Assembly: GCA_022925895.1 (NCBI GenBank) | Contig: JAKSYS010000353.1 | Location: 1 to 62,470, forward strand | Direction of reading: 5' to 3' | From: Fragilaria crotonensis | Taxonomy: Eukaryota; Bacillariophyta; Fragilariophyceae; Fragilariales; Fragilariaceae | Length of the DNA: 62,470 nucleotides | Made by a program: the position numbers and the translations under genes | Shown: positions 22,740 through 59,789 of the stretch, one piece after another | Layout: every line of letters starts with the position of its first letter | Numbering within the stretch: position 1 is the stretch's first letter | The notes under the pieces: generated by a model | Told to the model about the DNA's origin: nothing | Seen by the model: the letters and a program-made list of their open reading frames with translations, nothing else | Databases searched by the model: none

Positions 22740-23446
22740 CATTCCTTTGTCAAACCCCACGCGACCAGAGATCCGATGGTTCAATCGGCAGACGAGCATG
22801 AAATGGTCGATGATGTTTTGGGTTAATTCTTTGATGATGACTTCATGCGTGTGTGATTGAAGATTGCCAACAACGGCTACGACGTCGAACCGAAGTTGGC
22901 GCACGCTGTCTTTGCCAACCCACAATCACAACTACTTCCGTTTTTGTGTCACGACACACAACGCAGTGAATGACACCCAAAAGTAGAGAAGGCTATTTGC
23001 CGAGACGTGGCGAGAACCATCACATCAGCCGGACCTATTGCAGCTTCAATGTTCCAAATGTCCCACTCTCCGAATTGATTCACTAGTTGGATACTGTACG
23101 ACACCACATTGGCAGATGGACACCATCGATTGCGTAATCGACTCCGTCGTGTACCCTTTGAATCGAATTTGGAAATGTATATCAACTCACAATTCCCTAT
23201 GGCCCCAGAAGTATGTACTGGCGGCATTCAGTGTCACCACAGGAGTGCACGAGCCTCTCCATCGCCTCGTTTCGAGGTTATAATAAAACATTGGAAGTAG
23301 CATCTGGAATGGCGATGTTGTTGTGGATGGAGTCTTGATTGAGAAATCGTCGCGATCAACTTTGGCCTTTCACGACACAAGTCACCAGAAAAGGAGAGAC
23401 GATGTCCCAACGAAAAGCGCCAAGTAAAGATTGCAGATCATCTCAA
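22740..23446. repeat. 3' flank of RING duplication unit A
   Basis: This segment lies downstream of RING gene A and has counterparts downstream of genes B, C and D, plus orphan pieces at 38.2-38.9 and 50.1-50.4 kb. Shared landmarks on the plus strand are GAACATG/GAGCATG...TGGTCGATGATG near 22790, CCGAATTGATTCAC near 23075, and CACTCAGTG/CATTCAGTGTCAC near 23229. I see no intact gene in it. It could be a 3' untranslated region plus an intergenic spacer. The 22450-22740 stretch before it holds nothing I can name. Confidence 0.7.
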
Positions 23447-24635
23447 TCATACTGCGAAGGGGCTTGCACTTTCTCCATTCTTGATACATATGTCAACCAT
23501 CTCGTAAGTTTCAGGATCCCACATTGTTTGTCGACAATTTGGACATTCATCATGACCGCCTTGGAGCCAATTCATGATACACTCACGATGATAAGTATGT
23601 GAACACAAACCGGTCACCGTATCATCAGTAGGAACTGGAGCAAGATTAAAGCACGGATGAATACTTCACTGACAACAGATGATCAAAGCAAAGGGAAGTA
23701 GATGTATCACGTACCAAGAAATTCCATGCATATGGAGCACGAGACAGCGTCTGGAGCATCCTCACAAAATACATAGTGTTTTGATTGCGGGTCGTACTTC
23801 AAGTTACCACGCCCGCCTGAGTGTTCGTCACTTTCCAACTTTGAGGGCAACAGGTGAGAATGTGCTAAATTTTGCCGACGTTCCATACGATTCAATGCAC
23901 ATGGGCCGTACGTACCCTGCCTTCCCTCGGAAAGAGTGCCGCCAAAACGAGGGGACGACGTGACCGAGCATTTCCAATCGGCACTGTCGGCGTTGAGACA
24001 GGAATCGTCGGGAAGTTCTGTTGCGTTCCTTCACCATAACGACTTGGCGCATGATAGACACACCAGCGCCTGCATACACCAGCGCCACCATTCTGCATGC
24101 ACTTTTTGACGCAGGCACAGATACAAGGACCGAAGAAGCACACGGAAAATATAACATAAAACAATATTGCAAAAAGCTGATCTCCTGCCGGTGCAGGAGT
24201 TGGCGCGTTGGTAGCGGGGAGAAAAAGAACTGGAGAAGCAACGGGATAATAGGTTGGGGCCACTGGGGCATCCATGGCATAAGAGGGTAGAAACAAGTCA
24301 GAAACGGGAGGCGAGATTGGAGCATATGTGGGATGTAAGGTTGTAAACCAGGTGTTCTGTGTAGTGTTCTCCTGACAATCACACGTCGTAAAAATCGCTG
24401 ATGAAACGTTTGCGCATTTTTCTATCGGAATTGATCCTTGAAGTCCGGCAAGCGCGAGTTCGATGCAAGTACATGTTCCGTTAGTTTGATTTGGACACTG
24501 TGCGCTGGTTTTGGCAAATGGGTTTCCAACTTCGTATCCATCGCCACAAACGAAGCAGGTACTGCTTTGACCGGAGTTGACAGTGACAAGGAGTGATGCA
24601 ACCAAAAAACTTTGTAAACGTTCTCGGAGCATCAT
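23447..24635 (-). CDS. RING gene A: secreted-ectodomain, single-pass RING-H2 protein, 343 aa, three exons
   Basis: Exons 24635-23916, 23838-23715 and 23634-23447; introns of 77 and 80 bp with GT-AG ends and matching phases (0 and 1). Domains: signal peptide about 1-22; Cys-rich ectodomain with eight Cys (27, 30, 47, 55, 57, 74, 85, 87) around CGDGYEVGNP and AGLQGSIP; Pro/Ala stalk about 98-152; one membrane helix about 154-176 followed by KKC; a conserved juxtamembrane region (CRRWCVYHAPSRYGEG, RSRRPLVLAALFPREG); and a C-terminal RING-H2 with C274-x2-C277-x14-C292-x-H294-x2-H297-x2-C300-x11-C312-x2-C315. The predicted role is a membrane-anchored E3 ubiquitin ligase with an extracellular or lumenal sensing domain; that function is inference. 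I chose the start because ATG-ATG-CTC-CGA is conserved in the paralogues. Ectodomain class I. Confidence 0.88.
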
Positions 24636-24671
24636 AAAGCTTGTCAAGTTGTCGAGTTCTCCTGATGAGGC

Positions 24672-24683
24672 TTGAGAATTGTA
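24672..24683 (-). promoter_or_regulatory. Conserved upstream motif TACAATTCTCAA, gene A
   Basis: On the minus strand this 12-mer lies about 40 bp upstream of the gene A ATG. The same word occurs just upstream of gene F (59767-59778) and, with one change, gene E (56880-56891). A second conserved word, AACTTGACAA, lies directly before the ATG. It could be part of the promoter or the transcription start region. Confidence 0.4.
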
Positions 24684-24699
24684 TTCTGTAATATTCTCT

Positions 24700-25400
24700 C
24701 TCTTATAACCGAAGTGTGGATTTGACGATTTGACTGCTTCTCACCCCACTGCAGTATTTGGCAGGCTGCCAACTCTTGGCAGCATATGCATACACCAAAT
24801 ACTTCGAGTACTTTGTGTACTTTTCTACGTAAAGGTACTGGAGTAGTGGAGACGACATTTTGTTCTGTTGTCATTTGAGTCGTTGATCGGTTTGCGTGTC
24901 TGGGCACTGGGCACAGCCTTGGCGGCTCGTTGCTCTGGTAACAACGTGAGTTATGTTGCAGACAGAACTCTCCCTGCTAAGGAGACTCAATCGTTCGATC
25001 GCACACCCACGCTGACAGACAAGCAGAATTTGGTTGACATGTCGAGCATAACCCCTGATACGTGATACGCAATACGCGCGACGCACCGAGGTATGTCGTG
25101 TTATATAAATGCACGTTAAAATCCCCATGCAAACCGAAGAGTATCAGGATATCCGCACAGGATGCATCCATTCCACAAATCCGGGAAGCCAACGCCTTTA
25201 TATCGTTCTTATATTAACCGCAACGACGACAGGAGTCAGCAAATTCTATATCCCGCCCGCCCCCTCCGTAATCGGACACCTTGTGCCCTCTTCTGGTTAG
25301 CGAGGCAGCGGCTCCTAGTGAAAACGCCTTTACCCATCCAACCGCCATATCGCGACATGTTCTACACGACCTCACCACGAGAGCGAGGAGGGCAGAATGC
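24700..25400. other. Spacer without recognisable gene
   Basis: Sequence upstream of gene A. It includes TTGAGTCGTTGATCGG near 24874, a word also found upstream of genes E and F (near 57056 and 59926), which marks the unit's 5' flank. No coding signal was found. Confidence 0.5.
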
Positions 25401-26949: not shown

Positions 26950-28034
26950 TCATACTGCGGAGGGGCTGGAACTTTCTCCATTCTTGATGCATGCGTCAAC
27001 CATGTCATAGGTTTCGGGATCCCACATTGCTTGTCGACAATTCGGACAATCATCATGACCGCCTTGCAACCAATTCAGGATGCACTCACGATGATAAGCA
27101 TGTGAACACAAACCGGCTACTGTATCATCCGTAGGAGCTGCAACAACATGGGGAAGTGGATTAATAATTGGTCAACGTCAGATGCTTGAAAGTTAAAGGG
27201 AGGCATTTGTACCACGTACCCAGCAATTCCATGCATATGGAGCACACGGTAGCGTCTGGAGCGTCCTCGCAAAATACATAGTGTTTGGATTGCGGGTCGT
27301 ACTTCAAGTTACTTTTTCGCCCGCCTGAGTTTACGTCACTTTCCAACTTTGAGGGCAACAAGTGAGAATGTGCAAAACGCTGCTGACATTCCATACCATC
27401 CATCATGCGCCGTACGTACCCTGCCTTCCTTCGGAAAGAGAACCGCCAAAACGAGGGGACGTCGTGACTGAGCATTTTCATTCGGCGCTGTCGGCGTTGT
27501 GACAGGAATCGTCGGCAAGGTCTGTTGCGTTGCTTCACTATAACGACTTGGCGCAAGATACACACACCACCGCCTGCACAAGCCACCCTGCTTCGAGCAT
27601 TGTATTAGGCAGAAACAGCAGCAAAAAAAACCGACCAAGATAACTGTAAACAAAACATTAAACAACGTTGAATCGTTTGAAGCCCCTGGCGGTGTAGGAG
27701 TTGGGGCGATCATGATCGGAAGTCGGATAATCGGTCGGATGCCAAAAAGATAGGGTGTGGCGCCTGGAGCATAAGTGGTCTTTTCCTGACAATCACATGT
27801 CGAAAAAACCGCTGAAGAAACGTTTGCGCATTTTCCTATTGGAATTGATTCTTGAAGTCCGGCAAACGCGAGTTCGATGCAGGTACATTCAGTTTGATTT
27901 GGACACGGCACGCTGGTTTTGGCAAAAGGGTTTCCAACTTCGTATCCATCGCCACAAATAAGGCACTGTTTGGAGGTGACCCTGACAAGGATTGCAGCAA
28001 CCAAGAAGCTTTGTAAACATTCTCGGAGCATCAT
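26950..28034 (-). CDS. RING gene B: single-pass RING-H2 protein, 309 aa, three exons
   Basis: Exons 28034-27420, 27346-27220 and 27137-26950; introns of 73 and 82 bp, same positions and phases as gene A. It has the shortest ectodomain stalk of the family. The ectodomain is class I (CGDGYEVGNPFAKTS, AGLQESIP, CDCQEKTT). Stalk APTPTPPGAS; membrane helix LFNVLFTVILVGFFCCCFCLIQC, unusually rich in Cys; then CRRWCVYLAPSRYSE and SRRPLVLAVLFPKEG. The RING-H2 is split between exons 2 and 3 (CSICMEL...CSHAYHREC...CPNCR) with all eight ligands. Exon 2 carries one extra codon (GGRKSNLK). The C-terminus ENGESS-like tail ends SPSAV, as in the other members. Predicted membrane E3 ligase by inference. Confidence 0.86.
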
Positions 28035-29262: not shown

Positions 29263-30511
29263 TCATACTGCGAAGGGACTGAAACAGTCTCCATTCTTGA
29301 TGCATTCGTCAACCATCTCGTAAGTTTCAGGATCCCACATTAGTTGTCGACAATTTGGACATTCATCATGACCGCCTTGGAGCCAATTCATGACACACTC
29401 ACGATGATAAGTATGTGAACACAAACCGGTCACAGTATCATCAGTAGGAACTGGAGCAAGATTAAAGCACGGATGAATACTTCACTGACAACAGATGATC
29501 AAAGCAAAGGGAAGTAGATGTATCACGTACCAAGAAATTCCATGCAGATGGAGCACGAGACAGCGTCTGGAGCATCCTCGCAAAATACATAGTGTTTTGA
29601 TTGCGGGTCGTACTTCAAGTTACCACGCCCGCCTGAGTGTTCGTCACTTTCCAACTTTGAGGGCAACAGGTGAGAATGTGCCAAATGTTGCCGACGTTCC
29701 ATACGATTCAATGCACATGGGCCGTACGTACCCTGCCTTCCCTCGGAAAGAGTGCCGCCAAAACGAGGGGACGACGTGACCGAGCATTTCCAATCGGCAC
29801 TGTCGGCGTTGAGACAGGAATCGTCGGGAAGTTCTGTTGCGTTCCTTCACCATAACGACTTGGCGCATGATAGACACACCAGCGCCTGCATACACCAGCG
29901 CCACCATTCTGCATGCACGTTTTGACGCAGGCACAGATACAAGGACCGAAGAAGCACACGGAAAATATAACAAAAAACAATAATGCAAAAAGCTGATCTC
30001 CTGCCGGTGCAGGAGTTGGCGCGTTGGTAGCGGGGAGAAAAAGAACTGGAGAAGCAACGGGATAATAGTTTGGGGCGACGGGGGAGATTGAACCTGCTAG
30101 TGCAGGAGTTGGGAAATTGGTTGCGGGACGCAATGAAAGTGGAGAAGCAACGGGATAATAGGTTGGGACGACTGGGGCAATTGGGGCAAATGGAGCAAGA
30201 CTGGGAGAAGACGTTGGAAACCAGGTGTTCTGCGAAGTGTTTTCCTGACAATGACATGCCTCAAAAATCACTAAGGAAACGATAGAGCACTCTGAAATCA
30301 ATCCTTGAAGTCCCGCAATCTCGAGGTCTTTGCAAGTGCATAAAGTTGCTGATGACCCCTGCACTGGATCAGAACAGCTTAAGCTGGTTCTGACGTACGG
30401 GCTTCCAACTTCGTATCCATCGCCACAAATGGAGCAGTTTCTACTTGGTTCGGAGATGACATTGACAAGGAGTGCTGCAACCAAGAAACATTGTAAACGT
30501 TGTCGGAGCAT
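29263..30511 (-). CDS. RING gene C: single-pass RING-H2 protein, 363 aa, three exons, mosaic
   Basis: Exons 30511-29732, 29654-29531 and 29450-29263; introns of 77 and 80 bp. The ectodomain is class II (CGDGYEVGSPYVRTS, CTCKDLEIAGLQGLISEC, CHCQENTSQ), close to genes D and F. The stalk is doubled: one unit PTYYPVASPLSLRPATN...PALAG, then a second NYYPVASPVLFLPATN...PAPAG. From the second stalk unit through the membrane helix, juxtamembrane region, both introns and the RING, the gene is nearly identical to gene A (about nine differences over about 590 bp by eye). This looks like recombination or gene conversion with the join in the stalk. RING-H2 ligands are complete (CSICMEF...CSHTYHREC...CPNCR). 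Confidence 0.88.
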
Positions 30512-32760: not shown

Positions 32761-32818
32761 TTTTGGCCCAAAATGGTTCACTTACTAAGCGTATTATGTG
32801 ATACTTAAATTTATATGA

Positions 32819-35800
32819 GATAGCCAAATAAGTGGTACGCCAACTCCAAGTGATGGGTACGAGGAGATGCCGAAAACCGACTCAAAGACGACACGGCAAA
32901 AGTTATATCCAATTGTCCAATGGTGCACGCCCATTGTGCCATACCGATAAGCGTTTGATACCGACGGATTCCATCTTCCGCTAACGGTACGCTCTCGTCA
33001 AGCTCTGGGTGGCACCCTTCAGGAAGAGGCGTGCGATGAGTATATAGGTCACCATCGAGTCCAAATTCAGACTCGATACGGCGAATGCACTCCTTAATAT
33101 AGGTGGCACATCCAAGTACCCATGCGTTTTCATCCTTCGAGAAGTTGTAGTCATTCCCCAAGTAGTGTGCCGGTGGGCCGACAGACTTCAAGAGAAACGC
33201 TGCTGCAATTTGGTCCTTCCAGCGGTTTGGATTACGTGCGACGATCTTGAAATCGTCCACATGCGTACACACATAGTCGTAACCATCGAGCTCCTCTCTT
33301 TCCCGCATCCATACATCACGATCGTATCGAGAAGCGGAGAAGCCCATGGCTCGCAAGAAATCAGCGAAGTGCGCTCGAAACGCCCTGCTGGATGAACGCA
33401 ATCCATACAACGCCTTCTTTAAGATTAAAATCGAACCTTCACGCTCACCAAACTCCGGACCTGCCCTGGAGTATATCTTCTCCAAGCAATCAGCTGTAAT
33501 AAAGGCATTTCCGATGTCGCCGCAAAGGATCTGAAGCCCATCCCGATGTGCAATGAGATCCAAGAGGCGTACACTTATGCCTTTAACAACCGTGGACCGG
33601 GTATTGATTCCCATCGGATCTACCATGTGACCACCTGCAACCAGGCGCGCCTTGCGACGTCCGTCTTGCTTGACTTCAAAAATCATAGTAAGACGTGCCA
33701 TTTGAAAATCCGAGCTGGGTTTGTAGTCCGGGGGATGGAAAGAGAAGCAGTGCAAAGCAAGAAGGGATTCAATTTCCTTACGGATTGCATCCGCCCATAA
33801 CGTAGTACCATCCTCGCGATCGAGCTCGTAAGCGTGTTTCACGCTGCGAGGGATGATCACTCCGTATTTTACTTGCACTGGACGACTGAGCCGCCCAGGT
33901 TTACGCCGCTTTCGTTTACCCCCGGTGGTAGCAACCGAATGGACAACTCGTCGGATAAGACGAGTGCCATCTGGCAACTTGTCCGAAATTGTGAGGTGTC
34001 GTCCATCGTTGCCTGGAGTAAGCACCCCGTCAGAGCAGCGAAGGATGCGACGCAGCACTCGATTAAACTGTCGCTGGTAACTCCGAGCCCAACGCGTATA
34101 TCTTCCACCAGAATAGCGTCCGCCCGAGTTACCAACCTTATTCGCAAGGATATACCGTGCAGTTTCACTTGGATAATCTCGCTGGACTTGCGAGAACGGA
34201 ACAAATGAAGTTTCATCCGTTTTCCATTGCACTTCCATCATCAAAACACCGTCTCGCCAATCGTGAGAACGTATCGAATCGAACATCTCATCAGTGTCCC
34301 GGTCTTCAGCAACGCGGGACAACTGATGTGACACATTGTCAAGAATTGCGGGTGTCAATTCCTCGTCCTGAGTAACCAAAGAGCCTTCAAAAACTGGTCC
34401 TGGAAGATGGTCATCAACATCAGCACGGTCGTCACCAGTGCGATCCGTCGGGGTGGCAACGGCAGGGACAGCAACAGCATCTGGGTTATCTGACGTCACC
34501 GATTCGAATACTTGTGGCACAGCACGAGATGGGTAACGGATGTCTGATGAGGCAGCAAGGACAGATTGGTCATGGGGAGACGTCAATGTGGGAACGGAAG
34601 ACTGAAGATGAGTTCCCAATAAAGACGACTCTCCGGCATGTTGGGGCTCATCATCCAACAGTCGAGGGCGTGTCAAGGCTGGACCATGAACCTCGAAGAT
34701 CCCATCGGTGGTGACGGCTTCCGACTGCAAATCAACGTTCAAGGACTCCACTGCAACGGATGGCGCAGGAAAGGATTCGGATTGAGCAACAGCGTCCGGC
34801 ATCATTTCAAGCTCCTCTGAATCCGCTGGTGGGTCCTCCAACACAGTAACCTCGTCGTTACAATAAAATGTAAGATGGTCACCAGCAAGAGAACTCAAGT
34901 GATCGCTTCGAGTAGTCTCCAGCTCCCGAGATGTTGGCGAGTCCGAATAACGACGCCGAATAACAGATCGGGCGAGAACTTGAGGTCTTGCGTTCGTCTC
35001 CGTCTCGTCAGGTTCCGTCAGTATGAGGTAGCAAAAAGCATCCCCAACATTAGCCGCAATTCCCAAAAACCTACCCTTTGACATCTTTGGATTCGGGAAT
35101 GACTGCCGGGGTTGGTGAAACCAAATGGGTTCCCAAAAAACGAAACGGAAGACACCTATGTCAGGACGGTCACCCCAATGGCACTCGTGCGGAGTCAACC
35201 AATCCAAACTCCGACGAGCGAGGACAGTTCGTACCAAGCACATATACTCAAGAGCATAACACCAATAATCCAAAGGTGCACCTGTCGCCAACAATAAATG
35301 CATCGTGGCTGCTTTTAACGCACCGCCACGTCGCTCAGCAAGGTTCTGGTTTGGATGATGCGCCTCCGTGAACTCTGACCTGATGCACAGGCTTGCCAAG
35401 TATGAAATCCATCGTTTACCTTTGAACTCCGGAGCGTTATCAGACTTGATGACGTTCGGAGCACCACAGTCTGCAATCATACGAGGTAGAGTTGTTGGAC
35501 TTTGCGAGCGCCGTTGCATCAAATAGACAACATCCAAACCTGTCCTCTTGAACGCGAACAAATTCCAACATGTGTAACCCCCGACGGAAGTAATGGAAGA
35601 GAAGAAAGTATCGACGTAACAAATATCGTTAGACCGTCGAACTTTAAGCTGTGGTAAACGGGTCTGAAAGTGATCCCGCATTATCTCCCGAGTCTCGGAC
35701 TCCACTGAAGGAACAAGCTGCGTCGTCGCACACAACGTTTTGTGAACGACATGATTAGGAGCAAAACCAAGAGTCCGCTTCCAATCCAAAGGGAAGGCGC

Positions 35801-36428
35801 GTCCGTCACCATGCTCATTGGCCGATCGACGTCGAGAATGAACTCGATCCATCGGCTCATAAGGAACGGTACCATCCGTGATATTAACGGATGGCAAAAC
35901 TTGGAGCTCCGCGTCAGTGATCGGATGTACGACGAAGAAACACTTGGTACCATCGAAGTAAAATGGCATCCTGGTCGACTGGAATCGCGCCATTTGGAGC
36001 CCAGGATTCCCATGCACATCACGTTCACAGCGAGCTCGGTCATCGATCCCATTGTCAACGTTACGCAAGGATTGATGAACCGAAAGAAGTGATTCCCGCT
36101 GTGCGGGATTCGAATCAAACAGTGCTTCATGGACATATGCGGCATACTCGCGACCATCTTCGCACTGTAGTTTGGCTACAGCCGAAACAACAGGAAAGAT
36201 CTCGCCAACGTTCCGCCCAGCAAAAGCACCTGTCATCATCACCTCCCGCCCAGTGTATTGAAGAATTCTCCAAGCGGTTGTCACCAATGTCTGATCATTT
36301 CCAGTATCAGACACAAAAATCTGTTGGGAGGAATCGACCTCCGAGATAAACTCGTTGATCCGAGTGACTTGCCGAATAACTCGAATAGCCGACTCCTCCC
36401 ACCAGTCAAGCCCGCTCTGTGACCACAC
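32819..36428 (-). pseudogene. Copia 1 pol: protease, integrase and RT, 3'-truncated
   Basis: One long frame. Aspartic protease DTG (SDTGNDQT, about 36320). Integrase with Asp (VDTFFSS), Asp (SDNAPEF) and Glu (NLAERRGG). Chromodomain-like stretch (HDWRDGVLMMEVQWKTDETSF). RT with KLTMIFEVKQDGRRKARLVAGG, ALYGLRSS and the catalytic CTHVDDFKIV. It ends at LFGYL followed by foreign sequence. Relative to copia 2 it has lost two bases just after the gag stop, so pol is no longer in the gag frame. Confidence 0.92.
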
Positions 36429-37948: not shown

Positions 37949-37989
37949 GGTAAAACGAAGAAGGAAGAACAACGAAAAAGCTGTTAATC

Positions 37990-38096
37990 GTCATGCACAA
38001 AAGGAAGTGATATCTAGAATAGAATAACTACTCGATGTGCTGGCTAGGTTGGTGACGTGGCTGGAACGGATGCAGGACAGACGACTATATCCTGAC
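37990..38096 (-). repeat. 5' LTR of copia 1
   Basis: It is 107 bp, the same length as the LTRs of copia 2, and read on the minus strand starts GTCAGGATATAGTCGTCTG and ends GCATGAC. It is followed by GATTAAC, as in copia 2, which probably marks the primer-binding region. The gag ATG follows after 41 bp. Confidence 0.85.
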
Positions 38097-40280: not shown

Positions 40281-40464
40281 AACGTCGATTTCGGTGTCAG
40301 CAGCTTAGCCCTGTGCCAATGCATAAATGGATCCAACTAAGAGAACAATAATTTAACTCCGTTTTCGTTCTCGCCCTTCGATAAATCATCTCACTTCCAT
40401 AATCTGATGGCGACCATCAGGGTTGTCGTGTTCATATCTGGTTCTCAGGTGGAGGCAGTCTTTG

Positions 40465-41016
40465 TTACGCAATCAGTGCGAATAAGTCGTCAACATGCTC
40501 TACACCCGAAAGAGAGCAGGCCTCGTCGTTGTCTTCACCCATGAGTAAACGTCGCCAGAATTTGTCATCCTCATGGTCTCCGAGGAAGACTGCATTTGGA
40601 TAATCAGCAAGTGTCCTTTCCAATTCGTGATTCATGTGATTTTGCTCCAACGAGTCGTGCATGGATGAGTCGATCAGCACTTTATTCAGTGCGCACTCCA
40701 TGCCATCCAAGTCATCCAAGTATTTCATCGTCAACGACCCGTGCAGACCCAGACTGTCTGGAGCCGTAACGACGTTGAGACCATGTTGCTGTTGAGAGGC
40801 AGAGTTATCGCCGGACCTTGCATCACTGGCACCGATCGAAGCAATTCGGGTGACCTCGTCATTGAAATCTGAGTCCGGAATTGTCGTTCGCGACGCTACT
40901 GCGTCGTCGTTGAAGTCATTGTCCCAATGACCAGTAATGGAAATCTCGTCGTCCGTGGAAAAGATTGAGGAGGAGATTGACCAGCTTTCATCTGAGTCAG
41001 ATGCGGTCGGCGTTCC
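40465..41016 (-). pseudogene. Truncated duplicate of the DUF6824-type gene
   Basis: From about 40280 to 41016 the sequence is almost identical to 50420-51204, including the C-terminal coding part (KYLDDLDGMECALNKVLID...EHVDDLFALIA). At 41016 identity stops abruptly after GATGCGGTCGGCGTTCC and GTAC-rich sequence follows, so the N-terminal half with the DUF6824 domain is missing. A 3-bp insertion (GAGGAGGAG for GAGGAG) near 40970 is the clearest difference. It cannot make the full protein. Confidence 0.85.
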
Positions 41017-41685: not shown

Positions 41686-41793
41686 AGGTATCGAGCCCAA
41701 GCGGTGCCATGCATTTTGGACAAAATTGTCGACGCAAATGGTCCTATCGGGTCATATCTCAGATTTAGCTCCAGCGGTGAGGATGCTCTAAAT

Positions 41794-41900: not shown

Positions 41901-41928
41901 GATTAACTTTTCCTTGCTTACTTTGACC

Positions 41929-43458: not shown

Positions 43459-43479
43459 CTGATTGCAGAGGAGCCCGCT

Positions 43480-46400: not shown

Positions 46401-47676
46401 AGCGGGACCTGAGTTTGACGAACGCGAGGGATCGATTCTGATTTTCAAGAAAGCGCTTTACGGTCTCCGATCGTCGAGTCGCGCTTTTCGGGCACATTTC
46501 GCGGATTTTCTTCGTTCGCTTGGTTTTTCTGCGACGAGGTACGACCGTGATGTGTGGATGCGGCAACGTGAAGAGTGCGATGGGCATGACTATATTTGTA
46601 CCCACGTGGACGACTTCAAGATAGTGGCTCGCGACCCGGAACGTTGGAAGTCGCATATCTCTGCGGCGTTTTTACTCAAATCAATTGGACCCCCATCCTA
46701 CTATTTGGGTAATGACTATAACTTTTCGAAGGATGAGAATGCGTGGGTTTTGAGTTGTGCTACCTATTTAAAGGAATGTGTTCGTCGAATTGAATCTGAT
46801 GACGAATTACCTCTTGATGGTACTCTATGGACTCATCGCACTCCCCTTCCAGAAGGATGCCACCCTGAGCTTGACGATAGCGCATTGTTAACGGACGTGG
46901 GAATCCGCAAGTATCAAATGCTTATCGGGATGGCGCAGTGGGCATGCACTATTGGGCGGCTTGACATTGCATTTGCCGTCTCTTCTCTCAGCCGATTCTC
47001 GGCAGCTCCGAGGGAGCACCACCTCGAGTTGGCGTTGCATTTGTTTGGCTATCTGAAAAAGAATCCCAATCGTCGCATCGTTCTCGATTCTCGACCGTTA
47101 GTGATCGATGAGGGTTTGCGACATGATTCCTTCCACCCCGATTTCCTTGACGACTACCCGGACGCGAGCGAAGACGTCGGTGACGACTTTCCTAAAGCAT
47201 TTGGTCGCGAGTTGGAAACCACCGTCTTTTTTGACGCGGACCATGCGCACGACCATGTCACCAGACGCTCCATTTCTGGTCTGATTGTTTTTGTTGGCAG
47301 CACCCCAGTTATATGGACTAGCAAACGTCAGGGCTGTATCGCAACTAGCACGTATTGTGCTGAGTTCGTTGCTATGCGATCAGCTGTGGAAGAGGCTATT
47401 TCGATCCGATATATGCTCCGATGCCTGGGAGTCCCGGTTACTCGACCTACTGACTTGTTTGGCGACAATTTTGGAGTCATCCAGAGTGCCGAGATCCCGG
47501 AAGGTGAATTAAAGAAGAAGCACATTGCAATATCATACCACTATGTGCGTGAGGCTATTGCAGCTCGGATCGTTAATGCCGCCTGGTGCAGGTCCGACGA
47601 GAACTTCGCGGATATATGTACGAAGGCACTCGGATCTAATATCTTCCATAGTATAGTTGAGGATTTGATGGCCTAA
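43480..47676 (+). CDS. Copia 2 pol, 1398 aa: protease, integrase, chromo-like, RT, RNase H
   Basis: Domains from Met 43480: aspartic protease DTG with Asp27; integrase core Asp254, Asp311, Glu346 (VDTFF, SDNAPEF, NLAERRGG), with no HHCC zinc finger in front; chromodomain-like region near 700 (HSWKDGVLFLVIRWKTDET); RT with RRKARLVAGG, ALYGLRSS and catalytic THVDDF (Asp1044-Asp1045); RNase H with Asp1252 (FFDADH), Glu in YCAEFVAMRSA and Asp in FGDNFG, ending DICTKALGS. All catalytic residues are present with no internal stop. The frame is the same as gag, separated by one TGA and seven sense codons before the first Met, so translation may be by stop readthrough or by reinitiation. Confidence 0.96.
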   Translation: MRVLRRVTRLDGFISQADSSQQILVSDTGNDQTLITSVWRVIGTTGREVMMTGAFAGRNVGELFPVVSAVAKLIGEDGVAYAAYVHEALFDSNPAQKESLLSVHQSLRDRRNGIDDRARCERDLHGNPGLQAARFGDKVVPFYFDGTKCFYAVYRLTEEEERSLPRVVLTDGSVPYDPTARLHSRRRPTTSPDLTNWKHHLGFIPDHVVSKTLSVTSQLVPTVEAETREIMRDHFQTRLPELRVRRVNDACYVDTFFSSIPSVRGFTCWNLFCFQRTGLDVVYLMRRRSQSPTTLPRMVAECGAPLTLKSDNAPEFKGKRWVDYLNSMAIQSVFTEAHHPNENLAERRGGSLKAATVHLLRVTGCPLQYWCFALEYVCLLRTVLARRSLGWLTPHEVHWGDRPDISMFRFVFWQPVWYYQPRQSFPKTKMLKGRFLGIAQNVGDAFCFLILTEPENDDDPPPQVLARSVIRKRYPREEPPVVETTSLSAPLLFYKSDGITPLEDPASFSTSDIEDIYSDVVADCPSDTRPPFGAMSSHPDGARDEVSDAFDDGILEVYGPLTTRPRLSNDDSDPRTSDLSTLGPHSQLLHSEERSDSPLRDHTTTFATVEQPFSSPISPNDPVLQSANYGGHSGFPAAVPTADPLNDGSMDDRPMSPVGPGSNGDIRQITQDEDVEPPVLDDVSYQLSRVTADSSDDAMFERLDGHSWKDGVLFLVIRWKTDETSCLPFSQVKLDFPRETADYVLKHKLGCADGKYLGGRYTRWARQFNRQYARVVRRILRGHRSMPIRHEVATPIIRVSERLPDGTRLIRRVTREVSNKSGMSRKRKKPGRISRPVETKYGVAVPHNVRHALELDREAGNTYWADAIRKEVASLLALDCFEFHDPDYKPSSEFQWTKLTMIFEVKQDGRRKARLVAGGHMVDPMGVSSRSTVVKGISVRLLDLIAHRDQLPILCGDIGNAFITADCLEKIYARAGPEFDEREGSILIFKKALYGLRSSSRAFRAHFADFLRSLGFSATRYDRDVWMRQREECDGHDYICTHVDDFKIVARDPERWKSHISAAFLLKSIGPPSYYLGNDYNFSKDENAWVLSCATYLKECVRRIESDDELPLDGTLWTHRTPLPEGCHPELDDSALLTDVGIRKYQMLIGMAQWACTIGRLDIAFAVSSLSRFSAAPREHHLELALHLFGYLKKNPNRRIVLDSRPLVIDEGLRHDSFHPDFLDDYPDASEDVGDDFPKAFGRELETTVFFDADHAHDHVTRRSISGLIVFVGSTPVIWTSKRQGCIATSTYCAEFVAMRSAVEEAISIRYMLRCLGVPVTRPTDLFGDNFGVIQSAEIPEGELKKKHIAISYHYVREAIAARIVNAAWCRSDENFADICTKALGSNIFHSIVEDLMA

Positions 47677-47748
47677 GAGGAGGAGTCTGGGCTTGAGAGG
47701 AGGTGGGGTACCGGGCATTGGCACTGGCTAGTTCCAGTCGAAGAGGAG

Positions 47749-47855
47749 GTCAGGATAGGGTCGTCTGTCCTGCCGTCCACCAATGCCACGTCGTTCCCAC
47801 ACACGAGAATAGAATGTGTAATCTATATCTTAGGATCACTTCTATTAGTGCTGAC
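47749..47855 (+). repeat. 3' LTR of copia 2
   Basis: It is 107 bp and identical to 41794-41900. It is preceded by the purine tract GAAGAGGAG and followed directly by RING-unit flank sequence. Confidence 0.93.
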
Positions 47856-48547: not shown

Positions 48548-49688
48548 TCATACTGCGAAGGGGTTTGTACTTTCTCCATTCTCGATACATTTGTCAACCA
48601 CCTCGTAAGTTTCAGGATCCCACATTAGTTGTCGACAATTTGGACATTCATCATGACCTCCATGCACCCAATTCATGATACACTCACGATGATAAGTATG
48701 TGAACACAAACCGGTCACCGTATCATCTGTTGGGACTGGAGCATCATTAAAGGACGGATCAATACTTCACTGACAACAGATACTCAAAGCAAAGGGAAGT
48801 AGATGTATCACGTACCAAGAAATTCCATGCATATGGAGCACGAGACAGCGTCTGGAGCATCCTCACAAAAAACATAGTGTTTTGATTGCGGGTCGTACTT
48901 CAAGTTACTACGCCCGCCTGAGTGTTCGTCACTTTCCAACTTTGAGTGCAACAGGTGAGAATGTGTTAAATGTTGCCGACGTTCCATACGATACAATGCA
49001 CTTGGGCCGTACTTACCCTGTCTTCCATCGAAAATAGTGCCGCCAAAACGAGGGGACGTCGTGACCAAGCATGTCCAATCGGCAATGTCGGCGTTCTGAC
49101 AGGAATCGTCGGGAAGTTCTGTTGCGTTCCTTCACTATAAAGACTTGGCGCATGATAGATACACCAACGCCTGCATAAACCAGCGCCACCATTCTGCATG
49201 CACTTCATGACGCAGATACAGATACAAAGACCGAAGAAGCACGCGAAAAAAATAAAATCAAACAATATTAGAAAAGGCTGAGCTCCTGCTGGTGCAGGAG
49301 TTGGCGCGTTGGTAACTGGAGCAGCAACGGAATAATAAGTTGGGGCGGCTGGGCCGACTGGGGCAAATTGAGCAAGACTGGGAGAATACGTTGGAAGCCA
49401 GGTGTTCGGCGAAGTGCTTTCCTGACAATGACATTCCTTGAAAATCACTAAGGAAACCACAGAGCACTCTGAAATCAATCCTTGAAGTCCCGCAATCTCG
49501 AGGTCTTTGCAAGTGCATGAAGTGGTTGAGGATTCGTGCACAGGATCAGGACAGCCTAAGCTGGTTCTGACATAAGGGCTTCCAACTTCGTATCCATCGC
49601 CACAAATGGAGCAGTTTCTGCTTTGTTCACTGGCAACACTGACAAGGAGTGCTGCAACCAAGAAACTGCGCATAACTTCTCGGAGCAT
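48548..49688 (-). CDS. RING gene D: single-pass RING-H2 protein, 327 aa, three exons
   Basis: Exons 49688-49017, 48939-48816 and 48735-48548; introns of 77 and 80 bp with GTAAGT and GTACGT donors. Signal peptide (SFLVAALLVSVASEQ); class II ectodomain (CGDGYEVGSPYVRTSLGC, CTCKDLEIAGLQGLISEC, CHCQEST); Pro-rich stalk with APTPAPAG; membrane helix LFDFIFFACFFGLCICICVMKC; CRRWCIYHAPSLYSEG. The RING-H2 (CSICMEF...CSHTYHREC...CPNCR) is complete. The 5' flank keeps the empty hAT site that gene C has filled. Predicted membrane E3 ligase by inference. Confidence 0.88.
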
Positions 49689-50430: not shown

Positions 50431-50650
50431 CGTCGATTTCGGTGTCAGCAGCTAGCCCTGCGCCAATGCGTAAATGGATCCAACTAACAAAAAAACCGGA
50501 ACTAATGCATAAATGGATCCAACTAAGAGAACAATAATTTAACTCCGTTCTCGTTCTCGCCCTTCGATAAATCATCTCACTTCCATAATCTGATGGCGAC
50601 CATCAGGGTTGTCGTGTTCATATCTGGTTCTCAGGTGGAGGCAGTCTTTG

Positions 50651-51532
50651 TTACGCAATCAGTGCGAATAAGTCGTCAACATGCTCTACACCCGAAAGAG
50701 AGCAGGCCTCGTCGTTGTCTTCACCCATGAGTAAACGTCGCCAGAATTTGTCATCCTCATGGTCTCCGAGGAAGACTGCATTTGGATAATCAGCAAGTGT
50801 CCTTTCCAATTCGTGATTCATGTGATTTTGCTCCAACGAGTCGTGCATGGATGAGTCGATCAGCACTTTATTCAGTGCGCACTCCATGCCATCCAAGTCA
50901 TCCAAGTATTTCATCGTCAACGACCCGTGCAGACCCAGACTGTCTGGAGCCGTAACGACGTTGAGACAATGTTGCTGTTGAGAGGCAGAGTTATCGCCGG
51001 ACCTTGCATCACTGGCACCGATCGAAGCAATTCGGGTGACCTCGTCATTGAAATCTGAGTCCGGAATTGTCGTTCGCGACGCTACTGCGTCGTCGTTGAA
51101 GTCATTGTCCCAATGACCAGTAATGGAAATCTCGTCGTCCGTGGAAAAGATTGAGGAGATTGACCAGCTTTCATCTGAGTCAGATGCGGTCGGCGTTCCC
51201 CCGGCGTTGGTCGAGTTGGAGTTCCCATTGCTGTAAATGCGGGCTTGACGAGAGGCATCGCGAAACAGGTGAGCGACTTTAGTTCGTGCTTTGCCATTGC
51301 TTAGCCTCACCCAGTCACTATCATCGCTCGTCCTCATGACAAATACCATGTTCATCTTGAACAGCTCTCGAGTCGTGGCATCAACCAACCTGGTCTTGGC
51401 AGTTCGTCCCATCGCCTTGTCCATGTACTGTTCGAGGCGTCTTTCCACAACTCGTCGACAGATCCTGTTCCCTTCATGGTTGTAGTTTCGCTGTCCCCGG
51501 CCGCATACGATGTGCTTGTTGTGGAGCTGCAT
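50651..51532 (-). CDS. DUF6824-domain protein, 293 aa
   Basis: ATG at 51530-51532. The N-terminal domain (about residues 5-98) has HIVCGRGQRNYNHEGNRICR, then an amphipathic helical stretch, then SDWVRLSNGKARTKVAHLFRDA. This is the pattern of DUF6824, a domain greatly expanded in diatoms and possibly DNA-binding. The rest is acidic and Ser/Asn-rich, ending DDLFALIA. A second in-frame ATG does not look better supported. A truncated near-identical duplicate lies at 40465-41016. There is no sign of introns. Confidence 0.85.
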   Translation of the reverse strand: MQLHNKHIVCGRGQRNYNHEGNRICRRVVERRLEQYMDKAMGRTAKTRLVDATTRELFKMNMVFVMRTSDDSDWVRLSNGKARTKVAHLFRDASRQARIYSNGNSNSTNAGGTPTASDSDESWSISSIFSTDDEISITGHWDNDFNDDAVASRTTIPDSDFNDEVTRIASIGASDARSGDNSASQQQHCLNVVTAPDSLGLHGSLTMKYLDDLDGMECALNKVLIDSSMHDSLEQNHMNHELERTLADYPNAVFLGDHEDDKFWRRLLMGEDNDEACSLSGVEHVDDLFALIA

Positions 51533-53160
51533 GTTGCTGTTTTACATCCACCTGGGAATATACCCGTGCTCGAGATGGTGTGAAAAAAGTTGACTTTGCG
51601 CAGGAGAATCTGATCTTGCAAAAGCGTTCCTCCAATTCCATTGGTCAATTCTCAATCACAGTTGGGACATCACCGCGGCAGAACCCTCAACTTGACTAAT
51701 GTAAGTGTCGACGTCATGAGGCGACCATCCGAAGGTTGCCCGGTACCAGGTACTTTTGTCGACATGTAACACCTGGTACAAGTTGTACGTTTGTGCCGAA
51801 CGGGGAATTCTGCACCCTCGCACCATTCTTTCACATTGTAAATGTCGCATACGCGTTTAAGGTTTATAAGGGACTTTCAGCAAATCTTTAAAAAGGTGTG
51901 GGCGCGCGCAACCTTAGCATTCGTTGAGTACCGGATTGTGAGCTCCGGCACTCAGAAGTTCGAGTTGCAAAAAGTTAGGACCCTTCTGGAAGGTCCGGAC
52001 GCACCGCCGGAGTCGTGGAAAATCCGAGATCAAGTACTGTATACTGTATACTACAAGTACTAGAAGCAGGATGACGATATCTGAATAGGCAATTCGAAAG
52101 ATCTTACTGAGTTCTGTCGAAATACGTTTCGAATTTTATAATTTGAATCGACAGTTGTCTCAGAATTTTGAGTCGTATTTTTTGGGGATTCTCGGCCCGA
52201 ATTCATTAAGCTGACTTGGTTGGACACGTGGTGATTCGCCTAGTTAAATTATCGACGCCAGCCCGTGGTCACCCTATCTCCTAAGTTCATGATATTATTG
52301 CTGATTTGGAGACAAGAGATCATGGCCTTGAATATTGCCAGTGAACAAAACAAAAATTAAGATACCCTTAATGGTGTAATTTGATGAAAACTAACCAAAG
52401 TATTCTCAGGTAGTATTGATGAAGTAGTCTAGTACTATACCAGTAGTACGTACTAGGCTCACGAGCTGCTGGATCATCTCTTAAAGCAATCAATTGATTT
52501 GTTATATCAATGACAAGGTCTGTCTTCTTCATTGTCAACATGCCTTTAATTCTGACACCAAAATACAATTTGAGAATGTCTTTGAGCATAGTCCTCCGTC
52601 AAAGTTGTCCCCAGCAGCCGCAGTCTTGAAGCGCCCCATCAATTCCGTGAGGGTAGGGCATCATCTCACATTGTTGTACTTCTTCTGTTGATTCAGTTGC
52701 TTTTTTGCTTTTCTACCTTCTTCAATGCTTTCTGATACCATCTGATCTGTTGATATTGTCCAGCCATTTGTTTCATTGCGTGTTTGATCGCAATAAGTCT
52801 AGACCTACCGTGGTACGTGGTACTAGTACGTAGCGTCTACCGGGTGCAGGTACTGAACTATGGGAGCAGCACGGAATGCGTAGGAGCGCATGCAGGAGCA
52901 CACCTGAATGTCGATTTTTATTGCATAAATGAATAGATCATGGCAAGGGGATTCCAGAGCCGCCAATTTTTTTGTTATTGATTAAAAACTGAACGAGTAA
53001 AAAAATTATCAAATCCTACGGCAGTTTCTACGCAACGTATACCACAGCCATTTGTCCAGAAGTGTCAGCTGTCCATCCAAGTCAACCTGCTTCTACCGGT
53101 AGTTCCCATGCTGAGTCGTTTTCAACTGAAAAAATCAAGGCCGGGGCGTTTATCATGTGG
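51533..53160. other. Spacer without a confident gene
   Basis: It contains GTAC-rich words and small frames. A minus-strand frame at 52589-52368 (KLYFGVRIKGMLTMKKTDLV) faintly resembles a SAP-type helix pair but is too short to call. Nothing else was recognised. Confidence 0.45.
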
Positions 53161-55697: not shown

Positions 55698-56839
55698 TCA
55701 TACTGCCGACGGGCTGTGCCACTCGTCATCCTCGATGCATTGTTCAATCATTTCGTAGGTTTCGGGATCCCACATTGGCTGTCGACAATTTGGACATTCA
55801 TGATGGTCCCCATGCAACCAATTCATTATGCATTCACGATGATACGCATGTGAACACAAACCAGTCACTGAATCATCTGTAGGGACTGCAACAACATGAA
55901 GATGAACCGGTGAATACTACATTATTGACGCCCGATGCTAAACCGCAAGGAAGGAAGTTGTTGTATCACTTACCAAGAACGTCCATGCATATGGAGCACG
56001 CGACAGCGTCTGGAACATCCGTGCAAACTACATAGTGTTTTAATTGTGGGTCGTACTTTTCATTACTGCTGCGCCCAGCATGCGGGTGACCGTCCGATTC
56101 CAGCTTTGGAGACGACATGCGAGGAATGTGTCAGAGTCAGAAGTCGCTTCATACAACATTGCTACGAGCGCCCATCCCTTACCTTGCCTTCCTTTGGAAA
56201 GAGTGCTGCCAAAACAAGGGGACGTCGTGACTGTGTTTCTTCTGCAATCGACACTGTCGGCGATGCGACAGGAATTGTCGGCAAGTTCTGTTGCGTTTCT
56301 TCAATGTAGTGACGTGCTGGTGCACGATAGAAAGTACAAAGTTGTCTGCAAACGTCAGTGGCGTGATTATCCATCAAGCAGCGTACGAGACAAAAACAGA
56401 AGCAAGGAACGAGTATGAACAATGACAATAAGAAATCAAGTTCAATCTCGCTTCGACCTCCTGGACGTGTAGGAACTGAGACAGAAGTAATTGTGGGAGG
56501 AGTTGATGCTGGATAAATGGTTGGGGCGATTGGCGCATCACTGGGATTTGTGAATGGAGTTGCGTTCTGTGTAGTGTTTTCCTGGCAATCACATGTCGAT
56601 AAGATTGCGGAGGAAACGTTAGAGCAATTTTCGGTCGGAATCGATCCTTCCAATCCGGCAAGCGCGAGTTCGTTGCAAGTACACGAAGTGAAATTGTGAC
56701 ACTGAACGCTGGTTTTGGCCAAGGGACTTCCAACTTGGTATCCATAGCCACAAATGAAGCAGGGACTTCTTTGTTCAGAGGTGATAGTGACAAGGAGTAC
56801 AGCAACCAAGAAACGTCGTAAACGTTCTCGGAGCATCAT
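55698..56839 (-). CDS. RING gene E: single-pass RING-H2 protein, 324 aa, three exons
   Basis: Exons 56839-56183, 56103-55974 and 55885-55698; introns of 79 and 88 bp with GTAAGG and GTAAGT donors. I chose ATG 56839 (MMLRERL) by family conservation; the frame is open further upstream with no support. Class I ectodomain (CGYGYQVGSPLAKTS, AGLEGSIP, CDCQENTT), a shorter stalk without the PTPAPAG unit, membrane helix LLSLFILVPCFCFCLVRC, CRQLCTFYRAPARHY and SRRPLVLAALFPKEG. Exon 2 has two extra codons. The RING-H2 is complete (CSICMDV...CSHAYHREC...CPNCR). It is one of the more diverged members and so probably an older branch. Confidence 0.86.
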
Positions 56840-56949: not shown

Positions 56950-57774
56950 AGCCAGGGTGGCAATTTCGCAAATAGAGGACGAGTGTACTCGAGTGCAAGT
57001 ACAGTCCGATGAACACAATCGAAGGAGGTGTTTTCTTATTAGGTTCTGTTGCCTTGAGTCGTTGATCGGCTTGCTGCCGTTGTATTCATAGCGCGGGACT
57101 CTGGGCTGTGGTGTTGTACTCCGATTATGAAGCGCGTGCTTTGTGCATCGTTTATTACACGGGAACAGTACACATATAGCGTAATCGAGTGACCGGCCGA
57201 ACTGTATAGTGGTTTTATTTAGGTTCGTTCCGTCTTTCCACATTAAAACCCTCAATATGTAAACAAACAAATAAAAACAGGGTTTTCGAACTCTGTAAGA
57301 TGCGACGACGGTTAAACTGCTTTTCTGTTCATGGAAAAGACGAAATTTTTGGATGCCACATTCGATCGAACGGACGATAACATGTGTTCGACGTGAGGAG
57401 ACCTACCGGTAGTTCAGTTGTTTCAAAAACGAGCGTATCAATGGCCTGGCTGGTCGGAGCTATTGGAGGTATGCTCAGGATTGTCTTCGTAAAGGACATT
57501 TAAAACCAGTCGATGTGCCTTGAGGTGTGGTGCTGGTGAAAACCATGTCACACGACCTGATGTTATTGGTTCGGATGTTTAAACCAGCATTCTATCGTAC
57601 TCGGAATACATCCTCTATGTGGTCACATCTATTTGAATTTGGATTGGTCAGCACGGTGTTAAATGTTAGGGGAATGTTGTTGGATTGCCATTCTGCGTGT
57701 CGACTGGAGCCATTTACGTAACCAGGATAAACAGCGGCGATTGATTTCCGCATCATGAGTAGTAATGAATTCTC
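56950..57774. other. Spacer; right part is a duplicated segment
   Basis: The left part carries TTGAGTCGTTGATCGG (about 57056), as upstream of genes A and F. From about 57440 the sequence matches 61440 onward (GGCTGGTCGGAGCT / GGCTGATCGGAGGT, GGTATGCTC). No gene lies in this part. Confidence 0.5.
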
Positions 57775-58191
57775 TCATAAAGGTTTAGCCTCGACTGTGA
57801 TGGCATCCCTCACACCATTACCTTCCGATACAAACGTCTCATCACGGACGCCTCCTCCGCCTTTGGTCTCAAAGTCGTCAATGATTCCTTGCAAAGCGAG
57901 CGCATTGAGAGGCGAGAATCGACCCAAGTGAACCGAATTCGTGAGGGAAAGCATTCCTTCGACAGCATATTCCGGATCATCCGGATGGTAGGTTCGGCAT
58001 CCAAACTTGGCACACGAGGATTCAACCGACTCAATGAGTTCATGAATGAATTGCTGAACAATCGCAATGGTTGAATTCTCATCATTAATCATGGTACGGA
58101 CTTAATGAGCATCGTCGAATTTGAGCCATGATCGATCATCACTGTCATCGTACGTTTGGTCGTGGACTTCGTCGGTGGGATTCGAGTCTAT
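57775..58191 (-). pseudogene. Dead copy of the small acidic gene at 61823-62242
   Basis: It aligns over its whole length with the intact copy (IVQQFIHELIESVESSCAKFG, YAVEGMLSLTNSVHL). The start codon is ATA where the other copy has ATG, and a CAA codon is TAA (58102-58104). Either change alone would stop production of the full protein. Confidence 0.8.
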
Positions 58192-58509
58192 TTTTGATTT
58201 TTGATTTTGTGGTTTGTGGTTTTTTACAGAAAGTGTACTACTTTGAGTTATTGTGAATGATAAAGTGAATCAATCTCGAGCTGCCTTCCGATTGAAAAGT
58301 CACCCGCGCAACTGCTCTTGTTTTCAACGTTCAGAGAGTGTCTTCCTTCCTCGTCAGGAGGTTGGAAAGTTGATGTACCACTCAGCTACTTTAACGCCGT
58401 TGCGCAATCAACCTCACACTCAGTCGGGACGCGTCATTGCAATCATACTGCATCTTCATTTGATGCGAATTCAAGGCTTATCCCGCTCAATCGAAACTCA
58501 TCATCTTAA

Positions 58510-59728
58510 TCATACCGCCGATAGGCTGTGCCACTCCTGATCATTTATGTATTGGTCAACCATCTCGTAGGCTTCGGGATCCCACATCGGTTGTCGACAG
58601 TTCGGGCAGTCATCATGGTCACCTTGCAACCAGTTCATGATGCACTCACGATGATAAGAATGTGAACACAAACCAGTCACTGAGTCATCTGTAGGGACTA
58701 CAACAACATGAAGACACGGACAAATACTTTAGTGACGTTGGATTCTCAAAGACATGCAAGGGGAAGTAGATGTACCACGTACCAAGAAATTCCATGCATA
58801 TCGAGCACGAGACAGCGTCTGGAGCATCCTCGCAAAACACGTACTGTTTAGACTGCGGATCGTATGTCAAGTTGCTACGCCCGGCCTGTGGTGATCCATC
58901 TCCTTCCTGCTTTTGGAGAAGAGTCCACAAGTGAGAATGTGTCAAATGCAATGGTCGTTTCGTTCCATGGCAACAAGACATGCCATCACGCGCCGTACTT
59001 ACCCTACTACCTTCCTTCGGAAAGAGTGCCTCCAAAACAAGTGGTCGTCGTGATCGAGGATTTCCAATCGACAATGTCGGCGTTGAGACAGGAATCGTCG
59101 GCAAGGGATGTTGCGTTCCTTCAGCATGATAAATTGGCGTCGGCAAGTGCTGTTGCGTCACAGTTCCTTCACTATAACGACTTGACGCATGATAGACACA
59201 CCAACGCCTGCAAGCACGTGCGCCACGATTCGTCAAGCGTCGTATGAGGCAGTAACAAATGAAAGGAATCAGCACGATGAGCGATACAAAAAGAACAGTA
59301 TACAAAGTCCAAAGCTCCTGTTTGTGTAGAAACTGGTGCCTGGGAAGTGGGGCGAAATAAACTGGGATAATGTGATGGGGCGACTGGGGCAACGGGGGCA
59401 AATGGAACAAGACTGGGAGAATGCGTTGGAAACCATGTGTTCTGCGAAGTGGTTTCCTGACAATTACACATGTCGCAAAAATCACCAAGGAAACGTTAGA
59501 GCACTCTGAAATCAATCCTTGAAGTCCCGCAATCTCCAGGTCTTTGCAAGTGCATGAAGAGTCTGAGGACCCTTGTCCTGCATCAGGACAGCTTAAGCTG
59601 GCGCTGGCATACGGGCTTCCAACTTCGTATCCATCGCCACACATGGAGCAGTTTCCGCTTGGTTGAGATGTGACACTGACAACGAGTGCTGCAGCCATCA
59701 AGAAGCTGTGTGTATCATGTCGGAGCAT
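58510..59728 (-). CDS. RING gene F: RING-H2 family member, 346 aa, with compensated frameshift in ectodomain
   Basis: Exons 59728-59003, 58909-58783 and 58697-58510; introns of 93 and 85 bp. Class II ectodomain start (CGDGYEVGSPYASASLSC, CTCKDLEIAGLQGLISEC). At about 59462-59475 two extra bases relative to gene C shift the frame, replacing the conserved CxCQE by CVIVRKP and the normal stalk by unrelated residues. The family frame resumes before the membrane helix (LYTVLFVSLIVLIPFICYCLI). The old frame is still legible (CNCQETTSQNTWFP). The region after the helix is longer than in the paralogues (extra LPTPIYHAEGTQ unit). RING-H2 ligands are complete. Intron 1 has no stop and a length divisible by three, so retention would keep the frame. 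The gene may make an altered receptor or be failing. Confidence 0.75.
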
Positions 59729-59766
59729 GATCAAGGTTTGTCAAGTTCTCGAATTAGGAGGGGGGT

Positions 59767-59778
59767 TTGAGAATTGTA
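59767..59778 (-). promoter_or_regulatory. Conserved upstream motif TACAATTCTCAA, gene F
   Basis: Identical 12-mer to that upstream of gene A, about 40 bp before the gene F ATG. Confidence 0.4.
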
Positions 59779-59789
59779 TTTAGCTGTCA

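Follow-up and report, generated by a model that had tools for sequence, protein, structure and literature searches.

Six RING-H2 genes with a cysteine-rich ectodomain form a mosaic, interrupted tandem array in the diatom Fragilaria crotonensis

The minus strand of contig JAKSYS010000353.1 of the diatom Fragilaria crotonensis (GenBank assembly GCA_022925895.1) carries six RING-H2 genes (g1-g6, spanning 23447-59728), and comparison of the gene halves indicates that these genes are mosaics whose ectodomains have been exchanged between copies. The analyzed window is the whole contig of 62470 bases; the parent assembly comprises 62107879 bases in 881 contigs. The predicted proteins (309-363 amino acids) combine a small Cys-rich module, putatively outside the cytosol, with one membrane helix and a C-terminal RING-H2 domain. 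They are receptor-shaped and resemble ubiquitin ligases (E3).

In all six genes, exon 1 encodes a hydrophobic start, the Cys-rich module, a stalk, one membrane helix and a juxtamembrane region with RRPLVLxxLF at its end; exon 2 encodes a YDPQxKxY block followed by the first RING Cys pair; and exon 3 contains the remaining RING, an MWDPExY motif and the stop codon. In every gene, the phase is 0 for intron 1 (73-93 bp) and 1 for intron 2 (80-88 bp), which lies inside the RING; all introns are of the GT-AG type, and a spliced aligner with the g1 protein as the query recovered both introns at the same places in g5. A sequence-only reading of this DNA had proposed a one-strand set of six genes with a common architecture and identical intron positions and phases, and the gene models bear this out. 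The positions are as follows.

24635-23447, minus strand: g1, whole gene
23916..24635, minus strand: g1 exon 1, signal-peptide-like start, 8-Cys ectodomain of class A, stalk, membrane helix and juxtamembrane block
23715..23838, minus strand: g1 exon 2, pre-RING block and first RING Cys pair
23447..23634, minus strand: g1 exon 3, remaining RING-H2, MWDPETY tail and stop
28034-26950, minus strand: g2, whole gene
27420..28034, minus strand: g2 exon 1, ectodomain class A
27220..27346, minus strand: g2 exon 2
26950..27137, minus strand: g2 exon 3
30511-29263, minus strand: g3, whole gene
29732..30511, minus strand: g3 exon 1, class B ectodomain joined to a g1-like chassis
29531..29654, minus strand: g3 exon 2
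29263..29450, minus strand: g3 exon 3
49688-48548, minus strand: g4, whole gene
49017..49688, minus strand: g4 exon 1, ectodomain class B
48816..48939, minus strand: g4 exon 2
48548..48735, minus strand: g4 exon 3
56839-55698, minus strand: g5, whole gene
56183..56839, minus strand: g5 exon 1, ectodomain class A
55974..56103, minus strand: g5 exon 2
55698..55885, minus strand: g5 exon 3
59728-58510, minus strand: g6, whole gene
59003..59728, minus strand: g6 exon 1, class B, with a frameshifted patch that covers the last CxC and the stalk and ends before the membrane helix
58783..58909, minus strand: g6 exon 2
58510..58697, minus strand: g6 exon 3

The reading frames of g1-g5 are fully open. 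In g6, a +2 insertion shifts the reading frame across the final CxC and the stalk, which leaves an ectodomain with seven Cys and an altered stalk, while the protein stays open through to the RING; the eight-Cys ectodomain claimed for the whole set is thus present in five of the six genes. The g6 frameshift is possibly a false indel of the Nanopore-based assembly, and no second copy of the stretch for comparison was present among eight matches. The tandem arrangement that had been proposed is real, but it is interrupted between g3 and g4 by 18 kb holding two Copia-type elements. Searches of the window with the six proteins as queries (tblastn) found no further copies.

The key evidence for the mosaic nature of the genes comes from the disagreement between their two halves. 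The ectodomains fall into class A (g1, g2 and g5) and class B (g3, g4, g6 and a paralogue on another contig, C696), whereas the other half of the gene, the chassis, groups g1 with g3 and g4. In approximately unbiased (AU) tree tests with eight sequences, the chassis data rejected the ectodomain tree (p=6.2e-8) and the ectodomain data rejected the chassis tree (p=1.7e-38), and the rejection was kept in all eight tests in which g3, g1, C696 or both g1 and g3 were dropped (weakest p=0.012). Genes g1 and g3 are 93.7% identical over 943 bases from the stalk to past the stop codon but only 70% identical over the 484 bases around the ectodomain; their intron 2 is identical at 80 of 80 bases and intron 1 at 97% of 77, and the ectodomain has a synonymous divergence (dS) of 0.46. 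The ectodomain of C696 is synonymously closest to that of g4 (dS 0.08, with 79% of residues shared), while the dS of the RING is 0.88; the two genes show 4.3 synonymous differences in 60.5 sites of the signal peptide and ectodomain versus 22.0 in 60.7 sites of exon 2, RING and tail (p=1e-4). In the pairs with the strongest signal, one half of the gene is three to five times as diverged at synonymous sites as the other. Fisher tests of synonymous change between the halves gave p<0.05 in nine of 21 pairs, four of which pass the Bonferroni correction, and 12 pairs do not reach 0.05.

Could such a pattern be an artifact of the assembly process? Polishing may change bases but should not exchange blocks of hundreds of bases, and the mosaic pattern is also seen against a second contig, that of C696. 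Judging from the sequence comparisons, the simplest account would be repeated gene conversion or unequal crossing over with a boundary often near the stalk. Exchange of ectodomains between copies would fit a recognition role.

The two ends of the proteins also differ in the selection acting on them. Pooled over the 21 pairs that can be formed from the six window genes and C696, the ratio of nonsynonymous to synonymous differences per site (pN/pS) was 0.17 in the RING, 0.42 in exon 2, 0.49 in the tail, 0.70 in the ectodomain, 0.71 in the stalk (0.66 without g6), 0.86 in the juxtamembrane region and 1.00 in the membrane helix; pN itself was 0.44 in the helix, 0.37 in the stalk, 0.20 in the ectodomain and 0.07 in the RING. 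The corresponding dN/dS of the RING lay between 0.05 and 0.22 in all 21 pairs. The RING is clearly under strong purifying selection, the ectodomain is only mildly constrained and the membrane helix hardly at all. The sequence-only description of a variable outside and a constant inside therefore stands for the RING, the least variable part and one held by selection, but needs amendment for the remainder, as the helix and the stalk vary more than the ectodomain.

The Pfam scan of spliced proteins covered g1 and g5, and both exceed the zf-RING_2 cut-off of 27.3 bits (g1, E=1.6e-10, 41.5 bits; g5, E=1.5e-9, 38.4 bits), confirming the C-terminal RING-H2 domain initially read from the letters; exon 3 alone gives a partial match to the profile (28-35 bits) in the six genes. 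The alignment shows the C3H2C3 zinc ligands in all six proteins, together with an Ile after the first RING Cys, a Trp before the last Cys pair, and a Pro and an Arg at this pair, residues which we take to be the contacts with the ubiquitin-conjugating enzyme (E2) and the linchpin. RING matches among PDB sequences include the rice ligase EL5 (second of 51), RNF126, ZNRF3 (8e-7) and RNF13 (2e-5).

Hydropathy analysis of each of the six proteins revealed a hydrophobic N-terminus and one strong helix of 21 residues, with three to six Lys or Arg in the 20 residues after the helix versus none to two in the 20 before it. Pro, Ser, Thr and Ala together make up 0.49-0.63 of the stalk in five proteins and 0.25 in g6. 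N-glycosylation motifs occur in or beside the ectodomain in all six, with one more in the stalk of g2 and one more in the cytosolic part of g6. From hydropathy, charge and Cys chemistry, we infer a type I topology for g1-g6.

The ectodomain is built on a 6-Cys module of ~60 residues with the pattern CxxCGxG...C..L...G..G.I...C...C.C. Among 17 aligned copies (nine from RING genes and eight from non-RING frames), eight columns are invariant; of the six core Cys, five occur in every copy and one in 16. No Pfam family matched the ectodomains of g1 and g5 at E up to 1, and four non-RING module proteins gave nothing beyond two chance-level Pfam matches. A search for PDB homologues of the ectodomain returned four sequences at E up to 1, the best of which (0.0086), a leucine-rich repeat receptor matched via short LxGxIP repeats, was rejected. 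Extra Cys 3 and 4 occur only as a pair: neither is present in the paralogues on C108, C250 and C650 or in the non-RING copies. The paralogues on C307 and C872 have lost both C1 and C6. This paired loss suggests two predicted disulfides, C1-C6 and C3-C4.

The module is not confined to RING proteins. A two-module query from contig C11 gave 47 matches in the assembly at E up to 0.01, 41 of which lie outside RING-family loci, on 27 contigs; the C11 module matched the RING-family gene on C108 with E=3e-9 and g1 with E=0.002. Frames read on 11 of these 27 contigs encode secreted-looking proteins with Pro-, Thr- or Gly-rich stretches, and no RING was seen in them. These proteins (on C786, C416, C11, C139 and others) share the module of the g1-g6 ectodomain and differ in carrying such stretches where g1-g6 have the RING. 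The module is thus a general one of this genome, the RING fusion being one use among others. At C786:63770-65083, five tandem 6-Cys modules separated by Pro-rich linkers occupy a single frame, possibly encoding a matrix or mucilage protein. Searches of viral contigs with g1 exon 1 and with the RING returned no relatives, and a RING search of genome contigs in a prokaryote collection returned one locus, a 13-residue match in a bacterial metagenome-assembled genome, which was treated as chance.

Another important question is how far the family extends beyond the window. Searching the assembly with g1 gave at least 111 exon-level matches at E up to 0.01, and the PF13639 search gave at least 118 RING matches, including the six window genes. 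Spliced-aligner models were built for twelve loci outside the window on nine contigs and for four more distant ones. Ten of the twelve loci, on seven contigs, have the full architecture (C696, C273, C108 and C250, and two each on C650, C307 and C872); the near-identical pairs on C307 and C872 are probably alleles. Intron 2 has the same place and phase in all ten paralogues, and intron 1 is in the same place (within one residue) and phase 0 in eight; the aligner placed it elsewhere in C650a and C250 and proposed extra stalk introns in C650b, C108 and C250. By eye, a more diverged 6-Cys module followed by a helix and a RING can be recognized in C14/C543 (a single near-identical pair) and in the two genes on C652. 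On C151 and C29, near-identical contigs that look allelic, at least four tandem genes combine a short helix at the N-terminus with IFP and YDxxSxxY blocks and with a related RING and tail; in all eight models, intron 2 is in phase 1 and keeps its place.

The part of the picture that the sequence supports, a membrane-anchored RING-H2 protein with a Cys module outside, is common to three possible functions: partner capture, sorting and wall monitoring. In the reading that we prefer, which we hold to be about as likely as not, g1-g6 would be ZNRF3/GRAIL-like E3 ligases that capture partners via the ectodomain and then ubiquitinate them. They would be type I single-pass membrane RING-H2 ligases whose N-terminal module of 60 residues and 6 to 8 Cys, held by disulfides, lies in the lumen or outside the cell, with the Pro-rich stalk as a spacer between the module and the membrane and with the RING recruiting an E2 in the cytosol. 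The ectodomain would recognize a component of the extracellular matrix or a second membrane protein, whereupon the RING would ubiquitinate the cytosolic tail of this partner, or the ligase itself, so that the tagged protein is endocytosed or degraded. Through the swapping of ectodomains among copies, one ligase would acquire different outside specificities.

The animal PA-TM-RING proteins (GRAIL/RNF128 and RNF13) and ZNRF3/RNF43 have the order of parts that is predicted for g1-g6, namely a signal peptide (in g1-g6 a hydrophobic start), an outside or lumenal domain, one helix and a cytosolic RING-H2; hydropathy and the gene models place one membrane helix before a C-terminal RING-H2 in all six window proteins, as in PA-TM-RING. 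The ectodomain differs, being a PA domain in the animal proteins and a small module of 6-8 Cys in g1-g6. No PA domain was matched in g1 and g5 at E up to 1, and g1-g6 are therefore not members of the ZNRF3/RNF43/GRAIL family. We know of no array of PA-TM-RING or ZNRF3/RNF43 genes with swapped ectodomains. Plant ATL proteins, which form large and partly tandem families and include the rice EL5 found among the best RING matches, consist of a helix followed by RING-H2, and the C151/C29 array is ATL-like in shape. Most members are described as having only a helix, a GLD motif and a RING; g1-g6 have instead an RRPLVLxxLFP block and a post-RING MWDPETY tail, and no GLD-like block before the RING was seen by eye in their alignment. 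Single grapevine ATL members carry GUB_WAK_bind or WAK_assoc domains. The initial statement that known membrane RING ligases use other or no ectodomains understates the resemblance: PA-TM-RING and plant RMR proteins share the order of parts, and a grapevine ATL is reported to have a Cys-rich, pectin-binding domain.

In animals, the PA domain of GRAIL is reported to bind its substrates, the ectodomain of ZNRF3 binds R-spondin, and ZNRF3/RNF43 ubiquitinate Frizzled, leading to endocytosis. RNF43 without its PA domain is described as still inhibiting Wnt signalling, so that an ectodomain need not select the substrate, and this is the first of several points that weigh against partner capture. The C151/C29 array shares the chassis, and no ectodomain was seen upstream of its genes among the listed frames of at least 75 amino acids; the chassis tree, with its weak deep nodes, is compatible with both loss and original absence of the ectodomain there. 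Positive selection on the ectodomain was not established: pooled pN/pS is 0.70, and where the ratio exceeds 1, synonymous changes are few. The swap was not a clean one of two blocks, as exon 2 of C696 resembles that of g3 (dS 0.10) and the protein tree from exon 2 to the tail places C696 with g3 (support 98), unlike the chassis DNA tree. The Lys/Arg rule fails in five of 16 models (C650b, with two before the helix and none after; four C307/C872 models, with three before and two after). Finally, besides g6, frameshifts were required in five of the ten full-architecture paralogue models (C273, C650a, C650b, C307b and C872b), although a Nanopore-based assembly can hold false ones.

A possible, if rather doubtful, alternative is that g1-g6 are sorting or quality-control E3 ligases of the endomembranes, in which the lumenal domain binds cargo in the Golgi or trans-Golgi network, with the RING acting in trafficking or disposal and not in surface sensing. 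The compartment of g1-g6 is not fixed by the sequence, and plant RMR proteins are reported to be built in the same order, from a signal peptide through a lumenal PA domain, one helix and a linker to RING-H2, AtRMR2 being located in the trans-Golgi network and dimerizing via helix and linker. RMR proteins differ from g1-g6 in their PA lumenal domain, for which g1 and g5 gave no match, and they have a Ser-rich tail and an endomembrane location. Repeated ectodomain exchange would not be expected of a housekeeping sorter, and the membrane helix is the least constrained part of g1-g6.

That the proteins monitor the wall or matrix appears unlikely. By analogy with the galacturonan-binding domain of wall-associated kinases, the ectodomain would bind mucilage, the organic wall matrix or a homologous secreted protein, and the RING would adjust membrane proteins upon wall change. 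The occurrence of the module in secreted-looking, repeat-rich proteins, with five tandem copies on C786, argues for this, as does the GUB_WAK_bind domain of a grapevine ATL, which its source describes as Cys-rich and pectin-binding. Pfam and PDB searches revealed no homology link between the 6-Cys module and the galacturonan-binding domain, including no Pfam match to GUB_WAK_bind (PF13947) in the g1 and g5 ectodomains; an earlier survey of plant ATLs reports no recognizable domain beyond RING, GLD and helix; and a constant wall polymer would not favor swapping. We are similarly skeptical of the array as a recognition repertoire, in which gene conversion would diversify ectodomains on a constant ligase chassis and extracellular recognition, whether of partners, mates, bacteria or parasites, would be read out directly as ubiquitination and not phosphorylation. 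Least probable of all is a decaying multicopy family spread via duplication and gene conversion with little function left: the frameshifts in g6 and half of the full-architecture paralogues, the loss of one RING Cys in C650a and the almost free evolution of the helix and juxtamembrane region speak for decay, against which stand the low dN/dS of the RING in every pair, the open frames of g1-g5 and the splice sites kept in all six genes.

Several other features of the window and the assembly were observed. Between g3 and g4, the two Copia-type retroelements, with RVT_2 matches, lie at about 32811-37990 (minus strand) and 41638-47855 (plus strand), in opposite orientations, and are 69-71% alike in three main blocks; the plus-strand element has identical end repeats of 107 bases and long open frames, suggesting a recent insertion. 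A 699-base block is repeated at 99.3% identity (40318-41016 and 50504-51199), flanking g4 and one Copia element; an open frame at 50654-51541 (minus strand) matches DUF6824 (PF20710, 8.5e-14), a part that could not be seen in the frame of the second copy. A small gene is duplicated beside the array (57443-58224 and 61443-62273, 75.8% over 842 bases). One copy (62242-61823) is open with an ATG, and the first 124 residues of its product gave no Pfam match; the other has ATA at this position and an in-frame TAA and therefore looks like a pseudogene. At 956-3876 (plus strand), frames for an Ulp1-type peptidase (PF02902) and a SWIM zinc finger (PF04434) lie close together, presumably as in MULE-type transposons that carry a peptidase. 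An open frame of 1115 amino acids at 10760-14104 (minus strand) had no Pfam match at E up to 0.01. A tandem repeat lies at 14148-15383 (unit of 151 bases, 8.3 copies, 96% matches), with long open frames on both strands, probably produced by the repeat itself. Elsewhere in the assembly, which these matches mark as that of a diatom, the silicon transporter family gave 19 matches, with three domains fused in one open frame at C97:29749-33762 (1456 amino acids) and two at C771:21664-24330; concatenated silicon transporter genes have been described from several diatoms, including the araphid species Synedra acus and S. ulna.

In the diatom Seminavis, tandem duplicates are reported to include ubiquitin ligases, and the terms RING and cysteine do not occur in the main text of that report. 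Among the best-matching titles of the open-access literature, there was no description of this RING-H2 family and no name for the 6-Cys module. The array suggests, without proving it, a system in which recognition outside the cytosol leads to the tagging of cytosolic proteins for removal. Little is known about the ways in which diatoms perceive their environment, and a multicopy family that couples an outside module directly to a RING and shuffles this module among its copies offers a concrete candidate that can be tested. The family draws attention to a secreted module that recurs in the genome and is absent from Pfam, and it would show that the receptor-E3 layout has been built with unrelated ectodomains, the PA domain in animals and plants and a 6-Cys module in a diatom.

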